Source: a bacterium
GTDB taxonomy: Bacteria; Calditrichota; Calditrichia; RBG-13-44-9; J042
DNA: 64,000 nt
NCBI GenBank assembly: GCA_015485355.1
Contig: WFTQ01000065.1
Coordinates: 1-64,000 of the forward strand
Direction of reading: 5' to 3'
Below the pieces are notes generated by a model. It was given only the letters and a program-made list of their open reading frames with translations, was not told where the DNA came from and ran no database searches. Numbering within the stretch: position 1 is the first letter of the stretch; every line of letters starts with the position of its first letter. Positions 2 to 54,605 of the stretch are shown here, in pieces. The position numbers and the translations under genes were made by a program.

Positions 2-601
2 ATGGCCCATGCCAGCCAGGATATTCTGGAAAAGGCTCAGATATTTCCGGACCTGAAATCGGCTCTGGCCGATGTCCATTTTGCCGTGGCCACCACCCAA
101 CGGGAACGGGAATTCCACTTTCCTTTTTATACCCCGAAACAACTGGCTCAAAAAATGGCCTCCTTCGTTGCCGATCATCAAATTGCCCTGGTATTTGGTC
201 GAGAACAATCCGGTTTAACGAACGAAGAAATTGCCTACTGTCACGCCGTATCCACCATCCCTGCTGCGGTGACTCATCCATCCCTGAATCTGGCCCAGGC
301 CGTCATGGTATATGCCTACGAACTGTTCAACTTTTCTATGGAAGCGGAAAAAACCTACGCCTGGCGGTTGGCCTCTCAACCCGAGGTGACCGCCCTGTAT
401 GAACGATTGCGGAGCAGTTTGCAGCGGGTGGGCTTTCAACCCATGGACGACTGGGACAGTTTCATGATGCGGTTTAAGCGCATGTTCGGACGCTTACCCC
501 CCGAGGTACGCGACGTCCGGTTAATGCATAAAATCATTCACGCCTTCGACACCTATATCGATGCCCTGGAGCAAAAATTGAAGGAGAGGAACCGACAATG
601 A
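2..601 (+). CDS. trmJ: TrmJ-like tRNA 2'-O-methyltransferase (5' end missing)
   Basis: SpoU/TrmD-fold (SPOUT) RNA methyltransferase, most like TrmJ, which 2'-O-methylates C/U32 of the tRNA anticodon loop using S-adenosylmethionine. Visible motifs are FGREQSGLTNEE (SpoU motif 2, cofactor knot) and HPSLNLAQAVMVYAYEL (motif 3). The residues before them (ASQDILEKAQIF) align with the middle of the usual N-terminal domain. About 50 N-terminal residues therefore lie upstream of base 1, and the first in-window ATG is not a real start. The C-terminal helical tail is present. The stop overlaps the mpl start (ATGA), implying translational coupling. TrmJ versus another SpoU enzyme cannot be fully settled from this fragment. 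Confidence 0.8.
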   Translation: MAHASQDILEKAQIFPDLKSALADVHFAVATTQREREFHFPFYTPKQLAQKMASFVADHQIALVFGREQSGLTNEEIAYCHAVSTIPAAVTHPSLNLAQAVMVYAYELFNFSMEAEKTYAWRLASQPEVTALYERLRSSLQRVGFQPMDDWDSFMMRFKRMFGRLPPEVRDVRLMHKIIHAFDTYIDALEQKLKERNRQ

Positions 602-1995
602 AATATTATTTTCTGGGCATTGCCGGAACGGCTATGGCCTCGCTGGCCGCCATGCTCAAACAAAAGGGCCACCAGGTCTGGGGCACGGATCAGGGTATTT
701 ATCCCCCGATGAGCGATTTTTTACAGCAAGAGGCCATCCCCGTCTGGCAGGGCTACGATGTTGCTCACCTGCAACAACCTTTCGACCTGGCCGTTATTGG
801 AAATGCCCTGACCCGGGGAAACCCCGAAGTTGAGGAAATTTTGAACCGGCGCCTTCCCATCATTTGCATGCCCCGGCTGATTCGGGAACAGATCATTCAG
901 CACCGAAAAAGCATTGTTATCACCGGTACCCATGGTAAGACCACCACGACGGCTTTGACGTCCTGGATACTGGAATATGCCGGATACTCCCCCAGTTTTT
1001 TAATCGGGGGCATTCCCCATAATTTTGGGTATCCGGCCCGATATCGGGACAGCGAATTCGTGGTTTTAGAAGGCGACGAATACGACAGCGCTTTTTTCGA
1101 CAAACGCCCCAAATTCTTGCATTATTTTCCGTACTACCTGATCATTAACAACATCGAATTCGACCATGCCGACATTTATCGCGATGTGGAAGAGATCAAA
1201 GACAATTTTCGCAAACTATTACGCGTGTTGCCTTCCCGGGGATTGGTGATTGCGAACGGCGATTCACCCCATGTGCAGGACGTTTTGGAACCCATCTACA
1301 GTCGGCTGCAAACCTTTGGACGGAGTCCACACAACGACTGGCACTACGAGATGCAATCGCAAGACCATCACGGCTCCAGGTTTCGGGTCTTCCATGGAGG
1401 CGATTCCCGGGGCGATTTTTACCTGCCCTTGCCCGGGGAGTTTCAGGTTCGGAATGCGCTGGCCGGTATCATTACGGCCATGGAGGTGGGCATTCCTGGA
1501 ACATGCATCCAGGCCGCCCTGGAGCAATTCCGGGGGGTCAAACGCCGGATGGAGGTATGGGGATATTTTCAGGGGGCCCTGGTTATCGACGATTTCGCCC
1601 ACCATCCCACGGCCATTCAGGAAACCCTTCAGGCACTCAAACACAAATACGATGACCGGCGGCTGGTGGCCTTATTTGAACCCCGCACCAATACGACGGT
1701 GCGCAACATCTTCCAGAAAGCATTGGCCCGGGCCCTTTCCTGGGCGGACCGAATACTGGTGGCCCCTTTGCATCGGCCGGAGCGCTTTCCTCCCGCAGAA
1801 CGGCTTTCCCTGCCTCAGCTCCAGGCCGATTTAGAACAGCTGGGCAAATCGGTGACCATCATCCCGGCTTACGAGGAAATCCTCCCGGTTCTCCAAAACA
1901 CCCTGCAAGCAAACGATGTGCTGGTCATTCTTACCAACGGCAATCTGGGCGGTGCCTACTCGCAACTCCGTGCCCTGGTCCGGCAACGTCGCTGA
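598..1995 (+). CDS. mpl: UDP-N-acetylmuramate:L-Ala-gamma-D-Glu-meso-DAP ligase
   Basis: Mur-ligase family enzyme of peptidoglycan recycling. It joins recovered tripeptide to UDP-MurNAc in the cytoplasm with ATP. At 465 aa it has the normal Mpl length. The N-terminal Rossmann part begins YYFLGIAGTAMASLA, the P-loop is TGTHGKTTT (about residues 109-117), and the C-terminal part has DDFAHHPTAI and FEPRTNTTVRN. The last is the Mpl-type version, where MurC differs. The start overlaps the trmJ stop. It indicates meso-diaminopimelate peptidoglycan, hence a diderm wall. MurC is the only serious alternative, and the FEPRTNT motif argues against it. Confidence 0.88.
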   Translation: MKYYFLGIAGTAMASLAAMLKQKGHQVWGTDQGIYPPMSDFLQQEAIPVWQGYDVAHLQQPFDLAVIGNALTRGNPEVEEILNRRLPIICMPRLIREQIIQHRKSIVITGTHGKTTTTALTSWILEYAGYSPSFLIGGIPHNFGYPARYRDSEFVVLEGDEYDSAFFDKRPKFLHYFPYYLIINNIEFDHADIYRDVEEIKDNFRKLLRVLPSRGLVIANGDSPHVQDVLEPIYSRLQTFGRSPHNDWHYEMQSQDHHGSRFRVFHGGDSRGDFYLPLPGEFQVRNALAGIITAMEVGIPGTCIQAALEQFRGVKRRMEVWGYFQGALVIDDFAHHPTAIQETLQALKHKYDDRRLVALFEPRTNTTVRNIFQKALARALSWADRILVAPLHRPERFPPAERLSLPQLQADLEQLGKSVTIIPAYEEILPVLQNTLQANDVLVILTNGNLGGAYSQLRALVRQRR

Positions 1996-2102
1996 AGACC
2001 ACAATCGGTTGGACTCGATTCGCTGGGTGACCCCTCAGGACAACGCCTTTTTCCCTGGGGAGCATTCGCCGGATGGACAGACGCGGGTCTTACGGATACC
2101 GA

Positions 2103-3596
2103 TTAAACGATCACCTCGTTAAAGCTTCGATTTTCCAGGTAAGTTTTACGGATGGTGTCAAACTCTTGGGCGATGGAAAAGAATACATCGAACAAGCGAG
2201 GTTCAAAATGTTGCCCTCGTTCCTTCAGCATAATCTTCAGGGACCTTTCGTGGGAGTAGGCATTCTTATATACCCGCTGGGTGGTCAGGGCGTCATACAC
2301 ATCGGCAAGGGCTAAAATCTGGGCCGACAGAGGAATCTCATCGCCGCGCAATCCCCGGGGGTAGCCTCTTCCATCGTAGCGCTCGTGATGACAATAAGTG
2401 ATATCGATTCCCATATCCAGAAAATCCATTTCTCCGTACTGTTCCCGGATGGATTGCAAAGTATGATACCCGATCACCGTGTGCATTTGCATAATTTTGT
2501 ACTCCTCGGGGGAAAGTTTGCCGCTTTTGAGCAGGATATAGTCCGGTATCCCCACTTTTCCGATGTCGTGCAACGGTGCGGTTCGGTATAGGGTATCGAT
2601 AAAGGTGGCGTCCACCTGGTCCTTAAACGGGTCCTCTTCCGCCAGGGCCATGGCCAGAACCTTACAGTAGTTCCGAATCCGTTCCAGGTGATAACCGGTA
2701 TCTTGATCGCGATATTCCGCCAGCCGGGCCAGTCCAAAAATAATGGCTTCCTGGGCCAGGGTGGTCTTTTTCAGGCTCTGTATGAGTGCGTTTTCGACAC
2801 GGCGCTGGTCGGTCACATCTTTAATCAATGCGGCGTAAGCAAAAGTGCGCCCGTTCTCGTTGCGAATGGGGAAGAAGGACAGATTGGCGATCAATTCTTC
2901 CTGGTTGTGGCGAACACCTTTGATTTCCTGTTTCCAGAAACCGGATTCCCCCACGGCCCGCCGGATTTCATCAAAATCGATGGCCGGGAAGACATGTTTG
3001 GCCAGTACCGACAGCGGCTTATGCATAAAATCCTTGTCCCCCAGACCGGTCATCTGCTCGAAACCGACATTGGACTTCACGATAATCCCATCGGTATCCA
3101 CCACCAGAAGCCCGTCATCGGCGCTCTCGATAACGTCCTGAAAAATCCGGAGTTCCTCCAGCCGTTTGTTGAGGATCTGCTTTAAGTCATCGACTAAACT
3201 CTTTTCCCGAATTTTTTTATGGGACCGCTTGATGACTTCCCGTACTTTTTTCACAAAATCGGGAATCATGAAAGGCTTAACGATGTAGTCGTATCCCCCC
3301 TTTTTGAGGAAGTCCACCGCCATCTCCAGGTCGGGATTGCCGGTCATAAAAATAAAGGGGATATCCGGATGCGTACGCAGGGCGTAGTGGAACAAATCCA
3401 CCCCCGTTTTTCCCGGTAAATAAATGTCGGATACAACAATATCGAAATGGGATTGTCCTAAGCGCTCGATGGCCGAATCCACATCCGTGACCGCCACGGC
3501 GTGGATCTTCTCGTGCTCTAAGGCCTGGGCCAGAATTTGCCCCAGAAAATATTCATCGTCCACAATCAATGCATGGGGCCACTGGTCTTTTTTCAT
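2103..3596 (-). CDS. Response regulator with REC, PAS and HD-GYP domains
   Basis: Predicted phosphorylation-controlled cyclic di-GMP phosphodiesterase, cytoplasmic. REC occupies about residues 8-120 with phospho-acceptor D57 (VVSDIYLPG) and the conserved K in VKPF. A coiled linker leads to one PAS domain (about 150-270). HD-GYP spans about 285-480, with HD at 343-344 (LHDIGKVGIPD) and HHERYDGRGYP at 403-413, so both the metal-binding and GYP signatures are intact. At 497 aa it is complete. It lies 153 bp downstream of a TPR gene on the same strand, and no kinase partner is adjacent. PAS may sense a small ligand or redox state. Activity on c-di-GMP rather than another cyclic dinucleotide is family inference. 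Confidence 0.88.
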   Translation of the reverse strand: MKKDQWPHALIVDDEYFLGQILAQALEHEKIHAVAVTDVDSAIERLGQSHFDIVVSDIYLPGKTGVDLFHYALRTHPDIPFIFMTGNPDLEMAVDFLKKGGYDYIVKPFMIPDFVKKVREVIKRSHKKIREKSLVDDLKQILNKRLEELRIFQDVIESADDGLLVVDTDGIIVKSNVGFEQMTGLGDKDFMHKPLSVLAKHVFPAIDFDEIRRAVGESGFWKQEIKGVRHNQEELIANLSFFPIRNENGRTFAYAALIKDVTDQRRVENALIQSLKKTTLAQEAIIFGLARLAEYRDQDTGYHLERIRNYCKVLAMALAEEDPFKDQVDATFIDTLYRTAPLHDIGKVGIPDYILLKSGKLSPEEYKIMQMHTVIGYHTLQSIREQYGEMDFLDMGIDITYCHHERYDGRGYPRGLRGDEIPLSAQILALADVYDALTTQRVYKNAYSHERSLKIMLKERGQHFEPRLFDVFFSIAQEFDTIRKTYLENRSFNEVIV

Positions 3597-50566: not shown

Positions 50567-50586
50567 ACCTGGCATTATAAATATTC

Positions 50587-50600
50587 GGACTATAATGTCC
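50587..50600. promoter_or_regulatory. Dyad around a perfect -10 hexamer before the copper locus
   Basis: GGAC-TATAAT-GTCC, a -10 consensus inside a 4-bp inverted repeat, about 90 bp before the first gene of the metal locus. TTGAAC (50563-50568) is the best -35, but the 22-bp spacing is too long. Its layout would suit repressor occlusion. Confidence 0.35.
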
Positions 50601-50687
50601 ACAATTTGCTTTCGTTATTGCTTCTTATCCGGAAAACGGTTAATATAAAGGCCACGAAGGAATCGATTCAATGAGGGCGGAAGGTTG

Positions 50688-51110
50688 ATGAGGCGGGTAT
50701 TGGTTTGTGGCGTGGTCTTCTTTTTACTCGGTTTCGGTAGCGGGTTTCCGCTGTTTCTGGCACCGGGGGTCGGTTCGGCTGCTCCTCATGCTCATGGTAC
50801 CTGCCGGTGCGGTTGTGCCGCAGATGAACATGCCGATTGTGATGGCGGATGTTGTGGTGCGGCGGCAGTAACCGGCCAGGTGGGTATTTGCTCGTTCACT
50901 TGCAGCTGTTATTCCCATCCGCCCCAGCTTATCCCCCTGACGCTGAAATGGATCTTACCCCGCACTATTCCATTGGTGAATATCCCCAGGGATGGGCGGT
51001 GGTTGGGAGACATTTTCATTCCCGGGCCTCTGGCGGTTCCCGACTCTCCCGATCACCCTCCGGAAAACCTCTCCAGCAGTTTTACCTCCTGGCATTTCGA
51101 AATCGTCTGA
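50688..51110 (+). CDS. Small exported Cys/His-rich protein of the metal locus
   Basis: A 140-aa protein with a signal peptide (about residues 4-30). The mature N-terminus packs HAHGTCRCGCAADEHADCDG then GCCG, and SFTCSCYSHPP further on. That gives about ten Cys and several His within some 50 residues, strongly suggesting soft-metal binding. The rest is Pro-rich without known domain. ATG at 50688 is preferred to the adjacent in-frame TTG. It is the first gene upstream of a YtkA-like lipoprotein and an OprC-like receptor. I infer a copper sequestration or hand-over role; zinc or another soft metal is not excluded. Confidence 0.6.
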   Translation: MRRVLVCGVVFFLLGFGSGFPLFLAPGVGSAAPHAHGTCRCGCAADEHADCDGGCCGAAAVTGQVGICSFTCSCYSHPPQLIPLTLKWILPRTIPLVNIPRDGRWLGDIFIPGPLAVPDSPDHPPENLSSSFTSWHFEIV

Positions 51111-51390
51111 AAGAGCCGGTAAGGGATCCCGCTTCCCGATGATCCCGGCAACCGTGACCCGGTTCTCGACAGGGCGGGCAGGGATCGGCTCGGTCAATCC
51201 CTGTGGTTTGCTGCTCTTCCTGGTTCAAAGACGCTCCTCTTGGGAATGGAGCTATGCCGCTGCCCGGCGGGTCTCAACGCGGAAAGAAGCGCCCCGGCTC
51301 TTGGAAACAACAGTGAAAATCATTCGCTGCTTCTCCCGAAATTAGGAAAAGCAGCAAATACTGGTGTCAAACGTTTCCGGAGGAATCAAT

Positions 51391-52188
51391 ATGAAAGCGT
51401 CTCTGCTTCTTTTCATTACCTTGGTGATTGGAATTTGGCTTTTCTCTTGTAACCGAAACAGCACCGGGGTTGATCCCGAACCTGATCCCACCAAGGATTT
51501 GCATCGGATAGCCACCGGCGAACTGGAAAAGACCCTGGTAACGGTTTATTCGGATGCATCCTTACAAACGGGGTATTGCCGGATTTACGTGTTGTTAAAA
51601 GACCGGAACACAGGAAAAGTCTTACAAAAGGCCCGGATACAGATGACTCCCATAATGGATATGGGAGATATGAAACACAGTGCTCCCTGTGAAAATCCCC
51701 AGACCGGCTATGCGGAGAATGGATTGTTCCCGTGTGGGGCGGTTTTCATCATGTCGGGTACCTGGCAACTGGAGTTCCTCTTGCAGGAGCTGGAAAATGG
51801 TGATGCGGGTAAGGTGGTTGTTCCGGTGCAAGTGGCTCCCGCAAACCGCCTGAAGCAGGAGACCGGCAGCGACAGTGCCCACTATTTTCTGGCCCTGGTG
51901 GAACCTCGTTCCCCAAAGGTGGGAATCAACACTTTTGAAATCACCATTCATCAACAAGAATCCATGATGGCCTTTCCTGCCGTAACGGATGTTGAAGTGA
52001 CCATGGAACCGACCATGCCGTCCATGGGACACGGTTCACCCAATAATGAACACCCTATCCACAAGGGGAAAGGGCATTACCGGGGGAAAGTCAATTTTAC
52101 CATGTCCGGGGCCTGGCAAATCGCTCTGCGGGTCTCTCGTAATGGACAATTGCTGCTGCAAACGATGTTTGATCTTCAGGTGCCCTGA
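51391..52188 (+). CDS. YtkA/FixH-like lipoprotein
   Basis: A 265-aa lipoprotein. The start is ATG 51391 with GGAGGA upstream, and a lipobox is at IWLFSC with Cys as the lipidated residue. It has two beta-sandwich repeats of YtkA/FixH type. The first carries TPIMDMGDMKHSAPCENP and GTWQLEFLL; the second carries VTMEPTMPSMGHGSPNNEHP and GAWQIALRV. The M-x2-M-G-H signatures resemble copper-chaperone-like Met/His motifs of this fold. It lies between the Cys-rich protein and the TonB-dependent receptor, with 122 bp to the latter. I infer periplasmic-side or surface copper binding; the family itself is poorly characterised. Confidence 0.75.
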   Translation: MKASLLLFITLVIGIWLFSCNRNSTGVDPEPDPTKDLHRIATGELEKTLVTVYSDASLQTGYCRIYVLLKDRNTGKVLQKARIQMTPIMDMGDMKHSAPCENPQTGYAENGLFPCGAVFIMSGTWQLEFLLQELENGDAGKVVVPVQVAPANRLKQETGSDSAHYFLALVEPRSPKVGINTFEITIHQQESMMAFPAVTDVEVTMEPTMPSMGHGSPNNEHPIHKGKGHYRGKVNFTMSGAWQIALRVSRNGQLLLQTMFDLQVP

Positions 52189-52310
52189 CCCGATTGTTCG
52201 CTCCTTCAGTGGGGTGAGGTAAGGGACGGTTCCATGCCCTCGGGATTTCCCGATGGGCATGGAAATCAATGGATGGTTTCGATGGAGAATCCAAACAAGG
52301 AGTTTGTCGG

Positions 52311-54605
52311 GTGAAGCGAATACCCATTTTCGAGAAAATTGCGATCCGCGTTTCTGGCAAGAACGGAGCGTTCTGCGGCCGGTTTACCCGGATAGGTCCG
52401 TGGATTTTTCTGATGGTAATGATCATCCAATCCATGGTTTCTGCTCAAGAAACGGAAGGTGTATTGGCGGGGCAGGTGCGGGATAAGGAAACAGGAGCAC
52501 CGGTGCCGTTTGCTAACATAAAGGTGCTGGGTACTCCGCTGGGAACCGCCGGGGATTCCAGTGGCAATTTCTGGATGCGGTTGCCTCCGGGCCGTTATCG
52601 GTTGGCGATCTCTTCTCTGGGTTATGCCCCGGGCTATGTCAATGCTCAAGTTCATGCCATGCGGAATACCTTGGTTGAGATTTTCTTAACCCCGGTTGCC
52701 ATTCAATATGCCGAAGAAGTGGTGGTTTATGGAGATTCCGAAGCCCGGCGGCCGGCGGTTCGATTGAACCGCACCGAAGCCCTTATGGAACGGATGGAGG
52801 GTATGGCTCTGATCAAACGGGCTGACTTTGCTTGGGAGCCTTCCATCCGCGGGATGAGTGCCGCACAGATTGGTGTGGTGATTGACGGGATGAAAATCTT
52901 CAGCGCATGTGTGGACCGAATGGACCCGGTGACGGCCTACGTAGAGGTGGAAAATCTGAAAGAGTTGGATATCCGCAAAGGAGGATTCGACCTGACGCTG
53001 GGTGCGTCTGCCGGCGGTACCGTTAATCTGGTGACCTACAAGCCGGAGTTTGACCGCCCGCTTTTGTTACGGATGGAGGCGGGGGTGGAGTCTGCATCCG
53101 CTTTGCGAGTCGCCCGGGGAGAGGCGAATTGGTCGGATGGCACCCTGGCGGTTCGCGCCACCCTTTCGGTGAAACAGGCCGGTGATTTTTATGCCGGCGG
53201 AGGCCGGCGCATCCGGAATTCCGGATATCGAAAATACAATTTTCATGTCGGTTTTTCCCGCAGGTGGGGGACGGACCGACAATTGGAATTCTCCCTGATC
53301 GGCGACGAAGCGCGCGATATCGGATATCCCGTCTTGCTCATGGATGCTCGGAAAACCTCTTCCCGCATCCTGCGTCTGGAGTATTTCTGGCGCCCCCACG
53401 GCCGGGATGGATTCACCCTGCGCAGTAAAATCTATTATAACCACATTCGCCACTGGATGGATGACTTTCAGCGTGATGTGCATCGCCGAACCGTGATGCC
53501 GGGCATGTACATGCCCATGTTTGGCGAAACCCATACCGTGGGATGGGTGGAAGAAGTTCGGTTGCAAAAGGGAACTCACGTCCTGAAGCTGTTTCTGGAT
53601 GGTTACCGAATGCGGGCGTTTGCCGATATGCAAATGATCAGCCTGGATGCCGAAAGTCCCCCGGCCTACCTGATGAACCTGGGCGATGTGGTGAATGTCC
53701 AAGGCGCTCTGGCCCTGGATCACACCGGGATGATCGCTTCCCGATGGTGGATCCGAAACAATGTGCGAGTGGATTTCTCCTCAAGGGATGTGACCCGTGA
53801 ATTCGGCCGCAGGGCGCTGACCGGTTTCTGGGAGGGATCGGACACTTACCGGCGTTACTGGACTTTCAGTGCCAGTACTTCCCTGGAATATCAATTCAGT
53901 GATCACCGGAGCCTGCGTTTCTCTGTGGCCAGTACCCAGCGCATGCCCTCCCATATGGAAAATTATGGTTTTTTCCTTTATAATATCCTGGATGGGTATT
54001 TCTACACCGGGAATCCGAGTGTATTACCGGAATGGAGTCGTCAGGCAGAGCTGGTATTCGAACAATTTTCCCGCCCCCTCCGTTTCCGCATGGTGGGGTT
54101 TGTCAACGACGTGCGCAATTACATAAGTGGAATGGTGCAGTCGAAGGAATTTAAGGTATACACCAATCTGTCTTCTGTATACTGGCTGGGGGCCGAAATG
54201 CGGGGGGAGTGGGAGGTCCGGGAACATCTGGCTACCCGGTGGAGCATTGCCTACACCCGCGGTCATAATCGAGAGTTCAAAGAACCCTTGCCGTTGATTC
54301 CGCCGCTGGAAGCCATGGTCAGTGTCGATTGCCGGTGGGATAAATTCCGGCTGGCGCTGGAAGGGCGGTTTGCGGCTCCCCAAAACCGCATTGCCACACG
54401 AACCACTCTGGAAGATAAAACCCCGGGATTTGTTCTACTGAATCTGCGGCTCCAGTTTCCTTTGGCACCCTGGTTGAAAATAAGATTAGGAATGGAAAAT
54501 GTGCTGGATCGCTATTATCATGAACACTTGAGCATCAACAACTTACCCGGGAGAGGCCGCAATATGTACCTGATGTTTCGCATCCTTTTTCCCCCAGAGG
54601 GTTAG
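52311..54605 (+). CDS. TonB-dependent receptor, OprC-like (predicted copper uptake)
   Basis: A 764-aa outer-membrane receptor. GTG 52311 has AAGGAG 8 nt upstream; an ATG at 52269 lacks one. Order: signal peptide (to about 47), carboxypeptidase-regulatory-like domain (about 52-125, GQVRDKETGAPVPFANI), plug (about 140-250, with IRGMSAAQIGVVIDGMKIF) and barrel to the end (NVLDRYYHEH). The plug carries C200-VDR-M204 followed by DP, and the barrel carries H381-W-M383. Their pattern and 181-residue spacing mirror the CxxxM-HxM copper site described for P. aeruginosa OprC. A Met-rich MPGMYMPMF follows H381. Preceding genes are metal-binding. Copper is inference but well supported. Confidence 0.85.
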   Translation: MKRIPIFEKIAIRVSGKNGAFCGRFTRIGPWIFLMVMIIQSMVSAQETEGVLAGQVRDKETGAPVPFANIKVLGTPLGTAGDSSGNFWMRLPPGRYRLAISSLGYAPGYVNAQVHAMRNTLVEIFLTPVAIQYAEEVVVYGDSEARRPAVRLNRTEALMERMEGMALIKRADFAWEPSIRGMSAAQIGVVIDGMKIFSACVDRMDPVTAYVEVENLKELDIRKGGFDLTLGASAGGTVNLVTYKPEFDRPLLLRMEAGVESASALRVARGEANWSDGTLAVRATLSVKQAGDFYAGGGRRIRNSGYRKYNFHVGFSRRWGTDRQLEFSLIGDEARDIGYPVLLMDARKTSSRILRLEYFWRPHGRDGFTLRSKIYYNHIRHWMDDFQRDVHRRTVMPGMYMPMFGETHTVGWVEEVRLQKGTHVLKLFLDGYRMRAFADMQMISLDAESPPAYLMNLGDVVNVQGALALDHTGMIASRWWIRNNVRVDFSSRDVTREFGRRALTGFWEGSDTYRRYWTFSASTSLEYQFSDHRSLRFSVASTQRMPSHMENYGFFLYNILDGYFYTGNPSVLPEWSRQAELVFEQFSRPLRFRMVGFVNDVRNYISGMVQSKEFKVYTNLSSVYWLGAEMRGEWEVREHLATRWSIAYTRGHNREFKEPLPLIPPLEAMVSVDCRWDKFRLALEGRFAAPQNRIATRTTLEDKTPGFVLLNLRLQFPLAPWLKIRLGMENVLDRYYHEHLSINNLPGRGRNMYLMFRILFPPEG

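Follow-up and report, generated by a model that had tools for sequence, protein, structure and literature searches.

The 64,000-nucleotide stretch of Calditrichota DNA analysed here (contig WFTQ01000065.1; hereafter the window) carries three genes which, in our judgement, are likely to form a copper-acquisition operon consisting of a regulatory leader resembling CruR, a copper-binding lipoprotein, and an OprC-like TonB-dependent importer. The prediction that an OprC-like copper importer is partnered by a copper-binding lipoprotein is strongly supported at the level of sequence, and the assignment of the small cysteine-rich open reading frame (ORF) at the head of the locus as a regulatory leader is well supported by its residue pattern and by the parallel with CruR. 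Copper as the substrate, its hand-over to the lipoprotein, and translation arrest together with the direction in which it acts are steps that we infer. The elements concerned are the following.

50688 to 51110, + strand: small exported Cys-rich ORF (proposed CruR-like leader), 140 residues, 10 Cys, C-terminal HPPENL
50907 to 50909, + strand: codon of the last Cys (C74) of the small ORF, 49 residues ahead of PP
51057 to 51062, + strand: PP codons of the HPP motif, residues 124-125 of the small ORF
51111 to 51390, + strand: gap of 280 nucleotides between leader and lipoprotein gene, with an ordinary RNA fold
51391 to 52188, + strand: YtkA-like lipoprotein (PF13115), 265 residues, proposed copper-binding partner, motifs MDMGDMKH and MPSMGHGS
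52311 to 54605, + strand: OprC-like TonB-dependent receptor, read from the favoured GTG start, with ATG at 52269 as a possible alternative
52908 to 52922, + strand: C-x3-M, plug half of the predicted copper site (C200 to M204, GTG numbering)
53451 to 53459, + strand: H-x-M, barrel half of the predicted copper site (H381 and M383, GTG numbering)
53496 to 53519, + strand: Met-rich segment MPGMYMPM, downstream of the HxM motif

The receptor is composed of an N-terminal CarboxypepD_reg domain, a plug and a barrel. OprC is its best match in the PDB (phmmer, E 1.7e-25), and the first 17 fold matches of an AlphaFold2 model (pLDDT 76) are all OprC chains, at 20% identity. The top NCBIfam match is TIGR01778, the TonB-dependent copper receptor. 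In a tree, the receptors linked to ytkA-like genes are placed apart from four proteobacterial OprC rows, with a support of 62-76% for the deep branches and a very long outgroup. Judged by sequence, the protein is a relative standing beside OprC, a separate type and not an OprC equivalog.

The copper ligands of OprC are C143, M147, H323 and M325, and its methionine track comprises M339, M341 and M343 (PMC8610252). Both motifs of the window receptor match these ligands residue for residue in the phmmer alignment, and each of the four site residues is kept by all 30 receptors having a ytkA-like gene upstream, with a spacing of 179-189 residues. The segment MPGMYMPM lies at about the position of the OprC methionine track; its residues M396, M399, M401 and M403 (GTG numbering) are invariant across the nine closest receptors, and the methionines of an ADMxM motif are likewise invariant among the receptors compared. 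The four site residues are predicted to form one OprC-type copper site, and their convergence rests on homology because the plug is poorly defined at the site in the model (pLDDT below 50 in segments 184-191 and 216-222). A first-pass annotation of this DNA had already called the receptor an OprC-type importer. Alignment bears out the copper-receptor type but not equivalence with OprC, the TIGR01778 score being 159 bits against an equivalog cut-off of 472 bits. The residue numbering and the spacing given there (181 residues from Cys to His, compared with 180 between C143 and H323 of OprC) are exact if translation begins with the GTG at 52311, preceded at about 8 nucleotides by AAGGAG; the ATG at 52269 would turn the four residues into C214, M218, H395 and M397. 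The CarboxypepD_reg domain reported at the N-terminus is indeed present. Its fusion to the receptor was considered as a novelty and rejected, as such fusions are common in TonB receptors of these lineages and the domain is absent from several of the relatives.

The putative partner of the receptor is a lipoprotein with the lipobox LFSC at C20 and the motifs MDMGDM and MGHG. It was modelled as two beta-sandwich domains (pLDDT 89), the C-terminal one of which is a YtkA domain (PF13115; residues 165-246; 71 bits, above the gathering cut-off of 25.9). Across the lipoprotein family the motifs MDMGxMxHS and MPSMGHGSPNN are conserved, and the family profile matches CrdA of Helicobacter (E 1.2e-6), which is also found among the fold matches (TMt 0.64) and represents the nearest informative solved structure. 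CrdA binds copper via a methionine-rich loop (PMC9182242), and its Met-rich stretch aligns with the MPSMGHG motif. By analogy with CrdA, the lipoprotein would thus bind copper as well. A search for YtkA linked with TonB receptors found no earlier report in the collection of papers covered. A short ytkA-like lipoprotein of 140 residues, corresponding to the C-terminal domain alone, is encoded at locus L015 (5431-5853) inside a nitrous oxide reductase (nos) operon.

Fifteen relatives of the receptor, belonging to Calditrichota, Balneolaceae/Rhodothermaceae, Ignavibacteriae and Bacteroidota, came from one scan of public genomes. All 14 relatives that cover the plug have the four residues, and the fifteenth, a fragment, has the HxM motif. 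Whole-genome searches detected receptor relatives in 12 of 40 Calditrichota genomes and, within the class to which one Ignavibacteriae relative belongs, in 17 of 245. Directly upstream of every strong-scoring relative lies a ytkA-like lipoprotein gene: this holds for 9/9 close relatives from the public-genome scan, for 8/8 Calditrichota loci of other genomes with a strong receptor match (two of them duplicates of the earlier set), and for 14/14 further loci. The receptor-lipoprotein pair occurs in Calditrichota and in Bacteroidota-related classes. Recurrence of the gene order, which the first-pass annotation had proposed to look for, is found in relatives, and homologues that kept the neighbours while losing the four residues were sought and amount to 0 of 30. 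Its picture of an outlier in a distant phylum has to be given up, since the type is spread across several phyla or classes. It had further spoken of a pair of metal-handling proteins, of which the lipoprotein is retained, while for the Cys-rich protein a CruR-like leader is the better explanation.

The template for this explanation is CruR of Bordetella, an exported DUF2946 protein that heads a copper-repressed TonB receptor operon; its CXXC senses copper, its C-terminal RAPP arrests translation, and the two motifs stand at a fixed distance from each other (PMC9426467). A CruR homologue is also located ahead of oprC in P. aeruginosa (PMC9426467). Later in vitro work demonstrated the arrest by CruR (PMC12992588); CutF, which is related to it, works with a different sign (PMC9973294). 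The small ORF of the window starts with a hydrophobic N-terminus, contains the clusters CRCGC and CDGGCC and the sensing end CSFTCSC, and terminates with HPPENL plus 13 further residues. An ORF of this kind heads every Calditrichota receptor operon having enough upstream sequence, and a profile search of 40 genomes yielded 10 matches, 10 of which are directly ahead of a TonB-receptor operon.

Because the motif spacing of CruR is fixed, the corresponding distance was measured in the Calditrichota leaders. Counted to PP from the final Cys in the Cys-rich region, it amounts to 49 residues in nine of ten homologues and to 50 in the tenth, and the median pairwise identity of this stretch is 8% (eight homologues compared). 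The length ahead of the last Cys ranges from 70 to 92 residues and the number of Cys from 6 to 12; in the leader of L050 one more Cys lies closer to the end, beyond the Cys-rich region. Three of the ten leaders (L049, L097 and L098) had no part in building the search profile, and the spacing is 49 in all three. PP is preceded by a basic residue in 10/10 leaders ([K/R/H]-PP), and among 125 ordinary proteins encoded by the same genomes just 3 had [RKH]PP within the last 20 residues, as against all ten leaders. The ratio of nonsynonymous to synonymous substitutions (dN/dS) was saturated between the window leader and its nearest relative, and in close pairs elsewhere dN was well below dS. When the same-length interval test was applied to the lipoprotein, few indels were found there too, but at an identity of about 40-60%, so that it serves as a partial control only. 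Proteobacterial oprC-type leaders measured in the same way gave 47 residues in Cupriavidus and 46 in Thioclava, and in Klebsiella, where a DUF2946 gene directly precedes an annotated copper receptor, the distance from Cys to PP is 48 residues. We see an even chance that a class of arrest leaders in Calditrichota, devoid of recognisable similarity to DUF2946, controls OprC-like operons by means of a Cys-PP ruler of about 47-49 residues. If so, the same distance might have arisen by convergence or by divergence beyond recognition, with the length of the ribosome tunnel acting as the copper ruler, an idea to which we would give neither more nor less credit than to its opposite.

Leaders of the kind found in Ignavibacteriae and Balneolaceae exhibit a C-x-G-K-C-like pair, mostly an FHPP end, and a spacing of 62-69 residues (L015, L075 and L078 counted). 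Small exported ORFs with 3-4 Cys and mostly FHPP were observed ahead of the ytkA-like gene at L012 (4619-4987), L016 (4448-4828), L078, L080, L081, L083, L084 and L085, their Cys pair lying 62-69 residues before PP; none of the five or more tested had an NCBIfam match. Based on their sequences, these ORFs possibly constitute a second spacing class of leaders. Leader-headed TonB receptors are also encoded at L097 (9178-11529 of the reverse complement) and L098 (3496-5850), one of them beside a nos operon. Their plug motif reads ARMDS, that is, the Cys is lost while M and HxM are kept, and by this sequence they possibly possess a variant metal site. That receptors without the plug Cys are nevertheless leader-headed suggests a leader which predates the receptor type or is the more mobile of the two. 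The weaker Calditrichota matches L040, L050 and L051 have the motif form CPNRMDP and no ytkA-like gene. This second OprC-like receptor type is found at 4432-6789 of L050, 347-2917 of L051 and 255-2627 (- strand) of L040; the L050 receptor (genome G020) is located about 5 kb from nosZ, and that of L051 is followed by a NosL-family protein.

A connection of the pair to nitrous oxide reductase emerged from its location. In five relatives (L014, L015, L075, L076 and L077) it lies inside or beside a clade II nos operon made up of nosZ, a nosB-like gene and nosL, with nosD and nosF further on. The order at L014 is nosZ, a membrane protein gene, nosL, the ytkA-like gene, the receptor gene, nosD and nosF, with nosZ, nosL, nosD and the ABC ATPase confirmed by a Pfam check, and parts of this arrangement recur at the other four loci. 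In one search, clade II nosZ exceeded the cut-off in 9 of 9 pair-bearing genomes and in 0 of 3 distant relatives without the pair. Among Calditrichota, nosZ was present in eight of nine genomes with the pair and in 11 of 31 without it (p 0.007, uncorrected for kinship). The window's own genome encodes NosZ (878 bits) on a different contig, as well as three COX1-family proteins. Its own clade II nos operon (G000:C14, L052) has an Rrf2-like regulator gene ahead of nosZ; neither leader nor receptor was seen beside it. A search for TonB receptors in nos operons, made in the same collection of papers, likewise brought up no earlier report.

Taking these data together, we propose the following model. 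The receptor would import copper ions across the outer membrane via the C-x3-M/H-x-M site in a TonB-powered manner, with copper reaching this site over the methionine-rich segment. The envelope lipoprotein, whose two CrdA/YtkA-type domains contain much Met and His, probably accepts the copper that the receptor brings in or keeps it available for cuproenzymes, the main one supplied being, in this proposal, clade II nitrous oxide reductase. The leader cysteines would probably sense copper during translation and export, about 49 residues from the [K/R/H]-PP stalling motif, and stalling or its release might set the synthesis of the two downstream genes, with more being made when copper is scarce.

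Could the Cys-rich protein, alongside the same importer and lipoprotein, be a metallothionein-like periplasmic copper store or chaperone instead of a regulator? Ten Cys within 140 residues, grouped in CRCGC and CDGGCC, are far above the need of a two-Cys sensor, and the protein co-occurs with a copper receptor. We nevertheless regard this role as unlikely: number and pattern of the cysteines vary whereas PP keeps its distance of 49 or 50 residues from the last Cys at 8% identity, the Cys-rich gene comes first with a long gap behind it, its counterparts in other phyla retain just 3-4 Cys together with the terminal PP, and known genes at this position before oprC-type receptors are regulatory (PMC9426467, PMC9973294). 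Less probable still is a receptor for another metal or chelate, such as zinc or small-molecule copper, which would have inherited the OprC-like site without its function. Such a cargo is conceivable inasmuch as the zinc receptor ZnuD and heme TonB receptors have the same fold, the zinc site of ZnuD is close to the OprC site (PMC8610252), and CrtA imports chelated copper without having a conserved Cys or Met (PMC12914433). However, the invariant combination of Cys, Met, Met and His represents a soft-metal site and is accompanied by further invariant Met residues, and the CrdA-like partner, the nos-operon location in relatives and the absence of conserved Cys or Met from CrtA also argue for copper ions. 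As to a coincidental occurrence of the motifs in a TonB receptor of the ordinary kind, both C-x3-M and H-x-M are short, but chance is refuted by the residue-exact alignment with OprC and by the conservation in 30/30 receptors at fixed spacing, which leaves it a negligible probability.

Several observations weigh against a copper operon with a CruR-like leader. The receptor misses the equivalog cut-off of TIGR01778, and the correlation between nosZ and the pair ignores kinship. Searched up to E 10, the small ORF matches no family of Pfam, DUF2946 included, or of NCBIfam, and scans of five leaders with Pfam and NCBIfam and of five more with NCBIfam revealed no useful family. There is no detectable sequence similarity to CruR/CutF, the cysteines are many more, a CXXC is lacking at the sensing end, and KPP, RPP or HPP replaces RAPP. 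Since formal membership in DUF2946 fails, we propose for the leader a mode of action like that of CruR and make no claim of identity with it. EF-P, moreover, often relieves arrest at a plain PP. RNA folding of the 280-nucleotide gap was unremarkable (z -0.99), and the gap shows no C-rich, G-poor bias and hence no sign of Rho sites. The leaders of Bacteroidota-related classes differ in spacing and have fewer Cys, and no clear leader was found at several loci of these classes, including four of the five in nos operons. The leader device is therefore not universal, and the ruler differs there.

Terminator scans at the locus gave no more than chance level, and in view of this and of the ordinary folding of the gap no RNA element is claimed. 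A consensus scan pointed to one promoter-like site:

50569 to 50596, + strand: CTGGCA-16-TATAAT, weak promoter candidate with 10/12 matches

About three such sites are expected by chance across the 4.4 kb scanned. The gene P0004 (54942-55580, + strand) was rejected as a member of the operon on account of its distance of 337 nucleotides and its position distant from the receptor in L009. Its product of 212 residues contains a molybdopterin oxidoreductase domain (PF00174, 152 bits).

The means by which copper is taken up across the outer membrane have hardly been described outside the Proteobacteria. Copper supply is limiting for nitrous oxide reductase, and no other biological sink of this greenhouse gas is known. 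Brought together in the operon are an OprC-type site in other phyla and a predicted copper-binding partner never described with it, and the fixed distance from Cys to PP in its leader suggests that arrest peptides sensing metals may obey a common physical rule.

Each of the three proteins has a counterpart among characterized systems. With CrdA of Helicobacter pylori and other YtkA-like proteins (PF13115) the lipoprotein shares the beta-sandwich and the Met-rich loop followed by a GxY...N..M.G.W motif. By contrast, it has two such domains and added His (MGHG, MKH), and it is partnered with an importer where CrdA is partnered with an efflux pump. Common to the leader and to CruR/CutF are the first position in a copper-receptor operon, the small exported protein with a Cys sensor, the C-terminal proline motif beside a basic residue, and the long gap to the next gene. 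The distance from Cys to PP is 49 residues in the Calditrichota leader compared with 46-48 in the three proteobacterial leaders measured; CruR and CutF themselves are known from Bordetella and Rhodobacter. CrtA/BfrG of Bordetella together with CruR likewise represents a leader-TonB receptor operon for copper with a link to a copper respiratory enzyme; unlike the window receptor, CrtA takes chelated copper as its cargo and is followed by a PepSY protein. Closest to the receptor is OprC/NosA of Pseudomonas, with which it shares the plug-barrel fold, C-x3-M and H-x-M at equivalent positions, the Met-rich track, the presence, at several proteobacterial loci, of a small exported Cys/PP ORF immediately upstream, and the link to nitrous oxide reductase, which has been reported for NosA but disputed. 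It differs from OprC/NosA by the extra N-terminal CarboxypepD_reg domain, the obligate ytkA-like partner gene, and its apparent placement in a separate clade.

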